Virus record (IMG/VR): IMGVR_UViG_3300009774_000126
Location: 1 to 40,318 of that record
Length of the DNA stretch: 40,318 nucleotides
From: a virus
Direction: 5' to 3' (one strand)
Shown here: one piece after another, positions 3,140-21,578 of the stretch
How positions within the stretch are numbered: the stretch's first letter is position 1
Layout: each line of letters starts with the position of its first letter
Made by a program: the position numbers and the translations under genes
Notes under the pieces: model-generated
What the model saw: only the letters and a program-made list of their open reading frames with translations
Told to the model about the DNA's origin: nothing
Databases searched by the model: none

Positions 3140-3271
3140 TCAACGAACATAGTACACCTGATAGATTAGATAATCATTAGATTATTAAATTGGTATAGGG
3201 CGAGAAATAGAAGGTTAAAAAAGAAAGGGAGAGGGAGAGGTAATAATAAAAAAATAAAAGGGGTGTTGTCC

Positions 3272-4528
3272 ATGTCCAGCATGTTACCAGGAGGAGACAA
3301 ACTACCTAAGACAAAAGGGAAACAATATGATATTGATGCAACATTGACCGCAGTAATAGGAGGCATAGCCATAGCCAAGCTAGGAGGCATGGAGACATTA
3401 GGATATATGGTTGCTAGTGTTGGGTGTCTATCTACTATGATGGAGGTTAGGAGACTATTTAATCCTTATAAGGCATTGTTCGAGAATTGCAATCTTAAAG
3501 TAGGTAATCAAGTACCAAGATATATTAATAAAAAGGCAACTAATTATGGCTACTGTTTAACATTTGCTTTACCTTACGGAATGAGTACAGATGATATAGA
3601 GAAAAAGAAACTTGCAATAGAACAATATCTTAATAAAAGAATAGAGATTACTTACAACAACTACAAGGTATTTATGAAAGTATACGAAACCGAACTTGAA
3701 AAGTCTCCTGAGTTTAGAATAGTACAGACAAAGAATATATTAGAATTCGCCATAGGAGTAGCCTTTGGATACAAGATTATAACAGTAGATTTAGCAGAGG
3801 CGGTACATCTATTAATAGCATCCGAAACAGGCGGAGGGAAAAGCACATTACTAAGAGGGATAATTACACAGTTAATTTTATCAAAGAAGAATATTTCTCT
3901 TTACCTGATAGATTTAAAAGGTGGAATTGAATTTAGTGTATTTAGGAAATCGAAGGTTGTTAAAAAGTTTGCTAGAAATATCAAAGATGCAGAAGAAGTT
4001 TTATCTTTTCTACTTTTAGAAATTGATAGAAGGTATGATTTATTTTATGAAAATGATGTAGTTGACATTAAAGAATACAATAGACTAAAGAATGTAAGGA
4101 AATTAGACTATAAAATTCTAGTAATTGATGAATTTGCAGATTTACAGAATGAAAAAGGAAGTATATCAATAGTTGAAACTTTAGCTGCTAAGGCGAGAGC
4201 TTGTGGAGTGCATATGATACTGGCAACTCAAAGACCAGATGCTAAGATTCTAAACGGAAGAATTAAGGCTAATGTTCCATGTGTTATAGGACTAAAGACT
4301 AAAAATGGATTAAATTCAAGAATTATAATTGACGAAGAAGGACTAGAGGATTTACGAGGATTTGGTCATGGATTATTATGTGATAGAGGGATAACTGAAT
4401 TTCAATCATTTTACATAACAAATGAAGAAGCAAGAGACTTAATTAAACATACATACGAAGAAAAGAAAATCGAAGTAAAAAAAGTAGAAGAAGTTAAAGA
4501 TTTTGGATTCTTGAAGGTGATAAAATGA
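3272..4528 (+). CDS. FtsK/SpoIIIE-type DNA translocase / coupling-protein-like ATPase
   Basis: A 418-residue P-loop ATPase. Residues about 22-57 are hydrophobic and could span or touch the membrane. The FtsK_SpoIIIE domain follows, with Walker A SETGGGKST at 184-192, Walker B ILVIDEFADL near 282-291, and the sensor-like ATQRPDAKILNGRIKANVP. It is far shorter than cellular FtsK and lacks the gamma DNA-reading domain; in size it matches the coupling-type ATPases of Gram-positive plasmids and conjugative elements (Tn916 orf21, ICEBs1 ConQ). I chose ATG 3272 because AAGGGG lies 8-9 bases upstream; GTG 3263 and TTG 3266 are in frame. The stop overlaps the next start as ATGA, so both genes form one operon. 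Confidence 0.85.
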   Translation: MSSMLPGGDKLPKTKGKQYDIDATLTAVIGGIAIAKLGGMETLGYMVASVGCLSTMMEVRRLFNPYKALFENCNLKVGNQVPRYINKKATNYGYCLTFALPYGMSTDDIEKKKLAIEQYLNKRIEITYNNYKVFMKVYETELEKSPEFRIVQTKNILEFAIGVAFGYKIITVDLAEAVHLLIASETGGGKSTLLRGIITQLILSKKNISLYLIDLKGGIEFSVFRKSKVVKKFARNIKDAEEVLSFLLLEIDRRYDLFYENDVVDIKEYNRLKNVRKLDYKILVIDEFADLQNEKGSISIVETLAAKARACGVHMILATQRPDAKILNGRIKANVPCVIGLKTKNGLNSRIIIDEEGLEDLRGFGHGLLCDRGITEFQSFYITNEEARDLIKHTYEEKKIEVKKVEEVKDFGFLKVIK

Positions 4529-19299: not shown

Positions 19300-19463
19300 T
19301 TTTGGCATACCAAAAGGTGTTATTATTGTATTATGAGAGATGTGTGTAAAAGGATATAGAGATATGTATGGGATAGGTAAGGATTAATTACCCTTATCGA
19401 ACAGTGGTATTCCGAACCACCTTCCCATATTAATAATTATCGGACAAGCATTACGGAGGTGCT
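19300..19463 (+). ncRNA. structured pseudoknotted RNA element, copy 1
   Basis: Upstream of the HNH gene at 19469. Core, 19366-19463: outer stem GTATGGGA (19366-19373) with TCCCATAT (19423-19430); hairpin GGTAA/TTACC (19376-19380, 19388-19392); hairpin GTGGT/ACCAC (19404-19408, 19416-19420) with loop ATTCCGA; loop TCCGA (19411-19415) pairs with TCGGA (19440-19444), a pseudoknot. Finally AGCA/TGCT (19447-19450, 19460-19463) encloses the ribosome binding site CGGAGG. The second copy before the other HNH gene has the same architecture with different stem bases, i.e. covariation. A further perfect hairpin TTTTGG-CATA-CCAAAA (19300-19315) lies at its 5' side. Role unknown: translational control of the nuclease, a ribozyme remnant or a guide-like RNA are all possible. 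Confidence 0.6.
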
Positions 19464-19468
19464 ATTTT

Positions 19469-20131
19469 ATGGAAACAAAGATATGTAGTAAATGTGGAGA
19501 AGAAAAATCTTTAGAATGTTTTTATACTGAAAAACGAAATAAAGATGGGTTTACGGGTGAATGTAAAACTTGCTTAGCTATACGAATGAAGCAATACAAC
19601 AAAGATAATAAAGAAAAAATAGCTATAACAAAGAAGCAATATTGCGCAGATAATAAAGAAACAATATCTATAAAAATGAAGCAATATCAAAAAGATAATA
19701 AAGAAACAATTAAGCAATATTACGAAGATAATAAAGAAATAATATCTATAAAAAGTAAGCAATATAGAGAAGATAATCCTGAAAAGTTTCGCCTTTACAC
19801 CCAACGTCGCAGGGCACTTAAACAAGGGTTACCTAGTACATTAACAACTATCCAGTGGAATGGTGTAAAGGAATATTTTAATAACAAATGTGCTTATTGC
19901 GGCGAAGATAAGCCATTAGAACAGGAGCATCTAATAGCTTTAAGTAAAGGTGGAGAGTACACTCATAATAATATTATACCTTGTTGTAGGAATTGTAATA
20001 ATAGCAAACATGATAAAGACTTTTTTAAATGGTATCCAACACAAAAACAATATAACAAAGAAAGAGAAAGTAAAATATTAACACATTTGGGTTATACAAC
20101 TGAAGATACACAACAATTGAGCATCCTATAG
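19469..20131 (+). CDS. freestanding HNH homing endonuclease, repeat-linker type (copy 1)
   Basis: 220 residues. Residues 6-35 are a zinc finger (C6, C9, C32, C35). Residues 38-108 are about five tandem repeats of 11-15 residues on the theme KQY-x2-DNKE-x-I. Residues 137-190 are an HNH nuclease (C141/C144, EH 153-154, NN 167-168, C173/C176). The finger and repeats probably recognise a long DNA target while the HNH part cuts, as in homing endonucleases. The gene has its own 5' structured RNA and its own terminator, so it looks like an independent mobile unit between phage genes. Paralogue of 20802-21578. Confidence 0.82.
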   Translation: METKICSKCGEEKSLECFYTEKRNKDGFTGECKTCLAIRMKQYNKDNKEKIAITKKQYCADNKETISIKMKQYQKDNKETIKQYYEDNKEIISIKSKQYREDNPEKFRLYTQRRRALKQGLPSTLTTIQWNGVKEYFNNKCAYCGEDKPLEQEHLIALSKGGEYTHNNIIPCCRNCNNSKHDKDFFKWYPTQKQYNKERESKILTHLGYTTEDTQQLSIL

Positions 20132-20144
20132 AGGGTGCTTTTTT
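20121..20144 (+). terminator. intrinsic terminator after HNH copy 1
   Basis: GCATCCT-ATAG-AGGGTGC (7-bp stem with one T-G pair) followed by six or seven T; it overlaps the stop codon (20129-20131) of the HNH gene. Confidence 0.85.
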
Positions 20145-20167
20145 AATACCTATTTGGAGTGATAATA

Positions 20168-20416
20168 TTGCGAAAGTACATAAAGAAAATAGGTAAATAT
20201 AAAATTAAACGAACTAGATTTGATTGGATAGTAATTAATACAATAACACAAGCTCATGCACACTTTAAGTCTAAATGGGGTTGTGAATCAATTATACATA
20301 TGTTAAATGAAGAAATAGAGCCTGATAATCCTTATTTTATAGAGAGTAAAAGAAGATTAACCGAAGAAAAGAAAGAGAAGCAATATTATATTATAAATAG
20401 GGGTGTAAAAAGATGA
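20168..20416 (+). CDS. small basic hypothetical protein
   Basis: 82 residues, basic (RKYIKKIGKYKIKRTRFDWIV), with a central helix containing AHAHFKSKWGCESIIHML and a charged end. TTG 20168 lies 9 bases after TTGGAGTG; GTG 20159 is in frame but too close to that site. The stop overlaps the next ATG (ATGA). It lies between the two HNH units and may have been part of the original phage operon. Family not recognised. Confidence 0.55.
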   Translation: MRKYIKKIGKYKIKRTRFDWIVINTITQAHAHFKSKWGCESIIHMLNEEIEPDNPYFIESKRRLTEEKKEKQYYIINRGVKR

Positions 20417-20631
20417 AGGAATATATCGTATATAAATGTCTAGTATGTGGGTGTATCTTCATCTTACCTAGCGACCACGTTAAATATAACGAAAATGAAG
20501 GCAATTATATAACTTGTCCATTTAGAGGGCATAAGCAAATAGTAGTATCAGGAGCATATGACAGTTTAAAAGAGTGTATGGAGCATTCACATTACAAAAG
20601 AGATCATAGAGCAATAAAGCAAATAAAATAG
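20413..20631 (+). CDS. zinc-binding hypothetical protein, 72 residues
   Basis: MKEYIVYKCLVCGCIFILPSDH ... CPFRGHKQI: CLVCGC plus a later Cys and His suggest a small zinc ribbon, followed by a His-rich helical end. Proteins of this pattern are frequent in clostridial phages; function unknown. Its stop is directly before the second structured element. Confidence 0.6.
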   Translation: MKEYIVYKCLVCGCIFILPSDHVKYNENEGNYITCPFRGHKQIVVSGAYDSLKECMEHSHYKRDHRAIKQIK

Positions 20632-20796
20632 TTGTCTCCAGCGTGTGGGCAACCCTAACTAAACGTTTAAATTTAGCCATACTAAAAAAAGTAGATTTGT
20701 TTAGAAAAAAAGTGGGATAGGGTAGCTCCTGACAAGTAAAACCTTCCGAGTTTTATTTCCCATTATAGATATTATCGGATAGCACTTCGGAGGTGT
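20631..20796 (+). ncRNA. structured pseudoknotted RNA element, copy 2
   Basis: Upstream of the HNH gene at 20802. Core, 20712-20796: outer stem GTGGGA (20712-20717) with TCCCAT (20758-20763); small hairpin AGGG-TAGC-TCCT (20719-20730); hairpin TAAAAC/GTTTTA (20737-20742, 20750-20755) with the 7-base loop CTTCCGA; loop TCCGA (20745-20749) pairs with TCGGA (20775-20779). CAC/GTG (20783-20785, 20793-20795) encloses TTCGGAG of the ribosome binding site. The hairpin stem has different bases from copy 1 but the same loop, spacing and pseudoknot partner. A 5' stem-loop, GTTG...CAAC (20631-20653), has no sequence match in copy 1. Confidence 0.6.
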
Positions 20797-20801
20797 AGAC
20801 T

Positions 20802-21578
20802 ATGGGGAAAAAGTGTAATAAATGTGGAGAAGAAAAAGGTTTAGAATATTTTAGTGCAGATAAGAAAAATAAAGATGGGCTTAACGGTGTATGTAAGGGT
20901 TGTGTGGCTATAAGAAATAGACAATGGCGAGAAGATAATAAAGAAAAAATTATACAATGGCGAGCAGATAATAAAGAATGCAAGAAGCAATATGATGTAG
21001 ATAATAGGAAAATAATATCCGAAAGAAGAAAGGTGTATCGAGAAGAGAATAAAGATAAAATAGCTAAACAGATGAAACAATACAAGATAGATAATAAACA
21101 AATATTATTCACAAAATATAAGGAATATGGTATAAACAATAAAGAAAAAATGGTTAATCATAATAAACAATATTACATAAATAATAAAGAGCGAATATCT
21201 AAGCAAGTGAAACAATGGCAAAAAAATAACCCAGAAAAGAAACGTATCTATGAGCAACGTCGTGAAGCGATTAAAATAGGGTTGCCTCATACATTAACAG
21301 GCGACAAGTGGGAACGAATAAAGCAACATTTCGATAACAAATGTGCATATTGTGGAGAAGATAAGCCATTAACCCAAGAACATTTTATTCCAATATCAAA
21401 GGGTGGAGAATATACTCATAACAATATAATACCAGTTTGCCAATCTTGCAATAGCAGTAAACGAAACAAAGATTTCTTTGGTTGGTACCCAAAACATAAA
21501 TATTATAGCAAGAAAAGAGAAAGAAAAATATTAAAATATTTAGGCTATGAAAACCAATTGCAACAACTAAGTATGTAA
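20802..21578 (+). CDS. freestanding HNH homing endonuclease, repeat-linker type (copy 2)
   Basis: 258 residues, same plan as the copy at 19469: zinc finger (C5, C8, C31, C34), tandem basic-aromatic repeats at about 38-148, then HNH (C181/C184, EH 193-194, NN 207-208, C213/C216) and a near-identical C-terminal sequence. The repeat region has about eight units against five in copy 1, which accounts for most of the length difference, so repeats were probably gained or lost by slippage or unequal exchange. GGAGGTG precedes ATG 20802 and is partly paired in the structured leader. No terminator follows; the next gene starts 8 bases later. Confidence 0.82.
   Translation: MGKKCNKCGEEKGLEYFSADKKNKDGLNGVCKGCVAIRNRQWREDNKEKIIQWRADNKECKKQYDVDNRKIISERRKVYREENKDKIAKQMKQYKIDNKQILFTKYKEYGINNKEKMVNHNKQYYINNKERISKQVKQWQKNNPEKKRIYEQRREAIKIGLPHTLTGDKWERIKQHFDNKCAYCGEDKPLTQEHFIPISKGGEYTHNNIIPVCQSCNSSKRNKDFFGWYPKHKYYSKKRERKILKYLGYENQLQQLSM

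Follow-up and report, generated by a model that had tools for sequence, protein, structure and literature searches.

A leader RNA with two alternative loop targets, a candidate translational switch, precedes two HNH endonuclease genes of a viral genome and many unrelated nuclease genes in other phages

The IMG/VR virus record IMGVR_UViG_3300009774_000126 (positions 1 to 40,318, a stretch of 40,318 bases hereafter called the window) carries two HNH endonuclease genes, each preceded by a copy of one structured leader RNA (copy 1, 19366-19463; copy 2, 20712-20796). Comparison of these leaders with their relatives leads us to read them as self-contained cis-acting translational switches, in which the loop L3 of one hairpin would pair either with a nearby decoy (site A) or with the ribosome-binding site (site B), thereby limiting the dose of the endonuclease. 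From the sequence evidence we give this reading a probability of roughly 0.7. A preliminary description of the window had proposed that the RNA is covarying and pseudoknotted and that its last hairpin holds the ribosome-binding site. The comparative evidence backs this view, and among the roles suggested there we judge the translational switch to be the most likely.

From 5' to 3' the leader consists of P1, the dinucleotide UA, P2, a RACAA joint, P3 with its loop L3, the returning strand of P1 (P1'), a linker, site A and P4, the last hairpin, which bears the ribosome-binding site. The elements that had been listed for both leaders are all present where they had been placed; missing from that list were the third helix, P2, and the capacity of the loop bases TCCGA to pair with the ribosome-binding site as well. 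The statement that most stem bases differ between the two copies holds for P2 and P3 but not for the inner part of P1, where GGGA/TCCC is common to both. Minimum free energy folding of the single sequences with their flanks gave no signal relative to shuffles (z = -0.22 for copy 1, -0.07 for copy 2), and the minimum free energy structure of copy 2 is a different fold from the proposed one.

Relatives of both HNH proteins were collected from viral contigs and phages and their upstream regions were read, whereby the same leader was found in several of them. MAFFT alignments of full leaders misplaced P2 and P3, but a core alignment of six sequences worked and became covariance model R1, with a further model, R2, comprising 59 sequences. 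About 100 further leader copies were recovered with covariance models, and copy 2, which lies outside the R2 training set, was found by R2 at E = 2e-6. In the 59-sequence alignment (57 distinct) standard pairs fill 94.3% of the pair cells compared with 63.5% after shuffling, double-sided changes occur at 17 of 18 pairs, and the covariation score is 0.739 versus 0.207 for shuffled and ≤0.108 for slid alignments. In a second alignment, built from 39 matches of which nearly all were found by a DNA pattern fixing neither P2 nor P3, standard pairs made up 92.0% versus 66.8%, and 17 of 18 pairs again had double-sided changes; both alignments (A6 and A8) were controlled by shuffling and sliding. Although the alignments are fitted to the model, sliding one partner by 1-3 columns reduces the score to ≤0.11. 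The joint J2/3 nearly always reads RACA(A) or GAAA(A) across the copies; the UA of J1/2 was partly fixed by the searches. The structure of the leader is well supported by this comparison, and a lack of covariation in a wider alignment, which had been named beforehand as grounds for giving up the idea, was not what we observed.

The loop L3 has two potential targets, site A about 9 bases after P1' and site B about 24 bases after it, where the ribosome-binding site or the start codon lies. Over 72 non-redundant copies the best match to L3 averages 6.40 nt and the second, non-overlapping match 4.96 nt. A second match of at least 5 nt is present in 48 of the 72, compared with 7.7% after loops had been exchanged between copies (maximum 18% of 1000), and at site B a copy's own loop outperforms those of other copies in 66/72 cases (Wilcoxon 9.5e-13). 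The two-site complementarity recurred in a further set of 32 copies (20/32 versus 11%, maximum 32%), nearly all of which came from a different DNA pattern, with the copy at 5290 of L405 being the same RNA as L015. Site B co-varies with L3 even where it is no Shine-Dalgarno sequence, as in the duplicates CATCGAA (L283), GATTAGC (L284), GCAATGT (L309), ATAGAC (L314) and TGTTGG (L297), each occurring twice, and copies with Bacteroidetes-type TAnnTTTG promoters (L283, L284, L296, L297, L309, L314) have the same 5-7 bases at A and at the start codon. One loop is hence complementary to both decoy and ribosome-binding site, covarying with them through shared bases: of the L3 bases that the shorter of the two sites engages, 95% are common to A and B, so that L3:A and L3:B should be mutually exclusive. 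In 54 of 69 copies L3:A is more stable than L3:B, and a P4 stem of at least 4 bp surrounds B in 53/69, compared with 40% when the arms are swapped. The alternative pairing of L3 with A or B is, as predicted from these comparisons, well supported.

A second regularity concerns the apical loop of P2. Twelve different 6-nt palindromes were found at this position (UAAUUA, UCAUGA, UUGCAA, CUGCAG, GUGCAC, UAGCUA, CUCGAG, AUGCAU, UCGCGA, UGUACA, UGAUCA and AUUAAU), while other loops contain AGCU, GGCC or a GACG tetraloop. Among 42 distinct central 10-mers, 40 hold a palindrome of at least 4 nt (21.5 in shuffled sequences, maximum 32 in 5000) and 29 one of at least 6 nt (5.8, maximum 14 in 5000); two pattern sets in which the P2 loop was fixed are omitted from this test. 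The L3 loops of the same RNAs are palindromic in 0/22 cases. Self-complementarity this far beyond chance implies kissing-loop homodimers, and we infer that leaders would pair with each other through P2. For copy 1, whose palindrome UAAUUA occupies 19385-19390, a kissing loop is likewise proposed. Retroviral RNAs offer a parallel, as the HIV-1 DIS loop, a 6-nt palindrome with purines on either side, and the GACG loop of MoMuLV both kiss (PMC7357161, PMC5874298). P2 loops resemble the former in having a 6-nt palindrome with short flanks, often with an A 5' of it, and one P2 loop class is GACG as in the latter. We claim no evolutionary relation, and dimerization of the leader, unlike that of the retroviral loops, is deduced from sequence only.

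The mechanism we propose would begin with transcription at or near P1. Of 72 copies, 37 have a TATAAT-like box whose end lies 2-9 nt upstream of P1, with a peak at 6 nt, compared with 11.9 (maximum 18) in shuffled sequences; this would make P1 the beginning of the transcript. The boxes of the window are weaker than those of the family: that of copy 1 reads TATAGA, and copy 2 has no clear one. P1, P2 and P3 would then form a three-way junction with the conserved joining bases UA, RACAA and (C)UU. L3 may pair with either of two places, site A immediately 3' of P1 or site B. The latter is the ribosome-binding site in the P4 loop, except that copies with Bacteroidetes-type promoters have it at the start codon. 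During transcription L3:A would form first, leaving the ribosome-binding site open and translation on, whereas in the L3:B state the P3 and P4 loops would kiss, closing the site and turning translation off. Two leaders could further kiss through their P2 loops, and this dimer contact or a ligand at the junction might shift the balance and limit the dose. Such a switch would be carried as part of a homing-endonuclease cassette, and since it needs no gene-specific partner, its carriage by unrelated selfish nuclease genes would be explained. We tentatively extend this to an RNA-only dose sensor, in which kissing P2 dimers move L3 from A to B and translation falls as transcripts build up; selfish nuclease genes of unrelated folds would carry it across bacterial phyla as a host-independent limiter, with int-alpA RNAs in bacterial islands being the same device, though we consider this extension doubtful.

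Several points weigh against the translational switch as described. The on and off states were assigned by position, and the switching signal, be it dimerization, a ligand or folding kinetics, is likewise conjectural. No clear second site is seen in L303, L321 and L324, the energies refer to isolated loop duplexes outside any tertiary context, and the shuffled-loop and swapped-loop controls leave part of the copies' relatedness in place. For many copies the search pattern itself fixed J1/2, J2/3 or the P2 loop. GACG-type P2 loops are self-complementary over 2 nt only, and palindromes made solely of A and U would kiss weakly.

A variant compatible with the translational switch is a ligand riboswitch, whose junction UA / RACAA / UU would bind a small molecule or ion while the choice between L3:A and L3:B served as expression platform. 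Conserved junction bases together with a two-state platform do make up a riboswitch pattern; the conserved bases are few, however, the downstream genes (nucleases, KilA-N, integrase, unknown) share no metabolic theme and Rfam gave no riboswitch match, and we regard this variant as unlikely. Quite improbable is a static pseudoknot, in which L3:A alone would be functional and B would resemble A for the reason that both are Shine-Dalgarno-like. Since L3 is C-rich and Shine-Dalgarno sequences are G-rich, some complementarity is automatic, and 46% of permuted loops have a second match of at least 4 nt. Loop swapping removes this background, however, and B still fits its own loop; moreover, the flanks of the Shine-Dalgarno sequence follow the loop (CGAGAGG in L255, AAGGCGG in L013, GGAGCG in L223), and the copies with Bacteroidetes-type promoters retain a duplicate at the start codon that is no Shine-Dalgarno sequence.

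We found the closest described relative of the leader in the Rfam family int-alpA (RF02996). In the Rfam scan of the window no family reached gathering and neither copy matched RF02996 up to E = 5; by the gathering criterion they are not members of int-alpA. Of 16 sources scanned, 11 have RF02996 matches at gathering; eight of these are viral-contig copies (L221, L319, L320, L324, L326, L328, L331, L342) and the others are the controls from E. coli and Klebsiella, while L011 scores below that level. R2 reciprocally matches the int-alpA RNAs of E. coli and Klebsiella (L276, 34.8 bits; L278, 27.8; L277, 23.2). As the matches run both ways, we place the window copies at the margin of a wider family, within which RF02996 accounts for the part with GACG loops. 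The preliminary suggestion of an undescribed RNA can be kept insofar as the window copies match no Rfam family, and has to be given up for the wider family, which runs into int-alpA. The leader and int-alpA share the order P1 / UA / P2 / RACAA-GAAAA / P3 / P1' and a G-rich site A; L221 and L011, aligned to the model, display P1-UA-P2-GAAAA-P3-P1' with a G-rich 3' strand, and L3 is doubly complementary in the int-alpA copies inspected. In contrast, the RF02996 model represents the GACG-P2 clade, ends before P4 and site B and detects neither the window copies nor most of the remaining P2-loop classes. The P2 loops of the window (AUUAAUUAC and UAGCU) are not of the GACG type, which is present in other family copies. 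The int-alpA description we saw contains neither a link to homing endonucleases nor a two-target loop; the family was reportedly introduced by Weinberg et al. in 2017.

Rfam types int-alpA as "Gene; sRNA", and a trans-acting small RNA would accord with this label and with a self-complementary P2 loop that could meet other RNAs too. However, nearly all inspected copies, including int-alpA of E. coli and Klebsiella, lie 5' of an ORF whose ribosome-binding or start site is matched to their own loop, and no intrinsic terminator was seen between fold and ORF in the copies inspected, making a trans-acting role highly improbable. In E. coli, int-alpA has an integrase gene on one side and, on the other, a hypothetical ORF that starts about 24 bases past the RNA. 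The ORFs following int-alpA in E. coli and a Klebsiella phage (L276, L277, L278) encode 293-317 aa, with no Pfam match above cut-off, no NCBIfam match and one PHROG of unknown function.

Pfam families among 70 proteins encoded downstream of the leader include HNH (20), HNH_3 (8), GIY-YIG (7), NUMOD3 (8), NUMOD4 (5), LAGLIDADG (1, L282), KilA-N (2), integrase (1) and CapR/DUF723, the last of which we take to be Vsr-like; the remaining proteins have rare family names or none. The single annotated isolate is Sporosarcina phage Lietuvens (MT104122); its copy, at 3189-3250, stands before ORF4, an HNH gene located between those for terminase and portal, and blastn against named phages revealed no carrier beyond this isolate. 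The matches of a loose DNA pattern were chiefly due to chance, but the one genuine copy among them (L118), upstream of a GIY-YIG gene, gave the lead to other gene families. Protein scans of genome contigs gave no useful relative, and an R2 search of 296 Bacteroidota genomes, in which few candidates per genome were scored, found no copy. Among close HNH relatives the RNA is present at 23 loci and absent from 25 (some loci being duplicate or truncated), as expected of a module that comes and goes. Its occurrence before HNH, GIY-YIG, LAGLIDADG, Vsr-like, KilA-N and other genes points to a portable leader rather than the partner of one nuclease. Two or more copies are found on contigs L311 (6305-6359 and 7062-7116), L287, L342, L405, L393 and L418, and between some of them the P2 palindromes and downstream genes differ. 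In L221 the leader is followed by a gene (1589-2218) whose 210-aa product has C-terminal cysteine pairs and matches no family; it may be a mobile gene that has escaped recognition. L342 carries an Rfam GP20-b RNA (3441-3499) on the same strand as an int-alpA copy preceding a GIY-YIG-like gene.

This range of genes bears on two further readings, both of which we reject. Autoregulation, in which the encoded nuclease would bind its own leader and repress translation, has a precedent in I-TevI, which represses itself at the DNA level (PMC2988022); it is very doubtful here, as the same fold leads several unrelated nuclease folds and non-nucleases, and the variable loops L3 and P2 differ within one protein family. 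A guide or partner RNA of the nuclease, as in IscB with its HEARO/omega RNA and as the preliminary description had considered, is hardly credible: here too a structured RNA lies beside an HNH gene, and the C-terminal HNH parts of proteins 1 and 2 resemble that of IscB (NF040563, E 4e-10 and 2e-9, both below and the former far below cut-off), yet Pfam found no RuvC domain in the window HNH proteins, Rfam gave no HEARO match, and the RNA is absent from about half of the close HNH relatives but present before unrelated genes. The ribozyme relative suggested earlier was dropped together with self-cleavage, with no ribozyme family in Rfam up to E = 5 and promoters placing the transcription start at P1, and control by terminator and antiterminator was rejected on account of P4 stems that are short, often AU-rich and hold the ribosome-binding site.

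T4-type homing endonucleases (I-TevI, segB, Aeh1 mobE) are controlled in translation by hairpins at the ribosome-binding site (PMC2988022). The leader shares with them an RNA structure at this site, which lies within a hairpin in both window copies. The T4-type elements are simple hairpins, however, formed only on long read-through transcripts (PMC2988022), whereas the leader, apparently transcribed from a promoter of its own, combines a conserved three-way junction and a pseudoknot with two alternative targets. A full-text literature search, thin on subscription papers, found no description of such a leader and int-alpA in one paper only, as a list entry; as far as we could find, the two-target L3 loop and the self-complementary P2 loops are undescribed.

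The features of the window are compiled in Table 1. The two HNH genes are about 60% identical. In protein 1 an N-terminal zinc finger is followed by basic repeats and the C-terminal HNH domain; both proteins have the zinc finger and then basic repeats in varying number. The terminator-like hairpin at the end of gene 1 consists of AGCATCCTATAGAGGGTGCT followed by T6, and an Rfam match of chance level at this position also aligns a hairpin plus U run. With it, copy 1 resembles a self-contained cassette of leader, gene and terminator.

Table 1. Leader elements, genes and terminator-like hairpin in the window.
Feature	Position	Strand	Basis or remark
Copy 1, possible -10 box TATAGA (4/6)	19355-19360	+	sequence; weak; start presumed near first P1 base
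Copy 1, P1 5' strand GTATGGGA	19366-19373 (core 6 bp 19368-19373)	+	sequence, covariation
Copy 1, J1/2, conserved UA	19374-19375	+	sequence
Copy 1, P2 hairpin, apical loop AUUAAUUAC	19376-19398	+	P2 covariation, loop palindromy
Copy 1, J2/3 GAACA	19399-19403	+	family consensus RACAA/GAAAA
Copy 1, P3 hairpin GTGGT-ATTCCGA-ACCAC	19404-19420	+	7-nt loop L3 AUUCCGA at 19409-19415
Copy 1, P1 3' strand TCCCATAT	19423-19430	+	sequence, covariation
Copy 1, site A TCGGA, first L3 target	19440-19444	+	nine bases 3' of P1'
Copy 1, P4 hairpin	19447-19463	+	loop with site B / Shine-Dalgarno ACGGAGG (19453-19459), second L3 target
Copy 2, P1 5' strand	20712-20717	+	followed by UA at 20718-20719
Copy 2, P2 hairpin, loop UAGCU	20720-20730	+	4-nt palindrome AGCU at 20724-20727
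Copy 2, J2/3 GACAA	20731-20735	+	sequence
Copy 2, P3 hairpin	20736-20756	+	loop L3 CUUCCGA at 20743-20749
Copy 2, P1 3' strand	20758-20763	+	sequence, covariance-model match
Copy 2, site A TATCGGATA	20773-20781	+	core TCGGA 20775-20779, eleven bases 3' of P1'
Copy 2, P4 hairpin	20781-20796	+	site B / Shine-Dalgarno TTCGGAGG at 20786-20793
HNH endonuclease gene 1	19469-20131	+	220 aa; Pfam HNH_5 4e-9, HNH 2e-8; phrog_1035
HNH endonuclease gene 2	20802-21578	+	258 aa; Pfam HNH_5 5e-10
Terminator-like hairpin and T run, overlapping the end of HNH gene 1	20119-20147	+	sequence

If the leader is indeed a cis translational switch, freestanding homing endonucleases of several unrelated folds would be under the control of one regulatory RNA, and the int-alpA family would gain a testable function. 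It would represent a compact two-state RNA device, whose targets can be read from the sequence in nearly every copy. Should the P2 loop dimerize, this would be a very unusual case, a natural mRNA leader able to sense the abundance of its own transcript.

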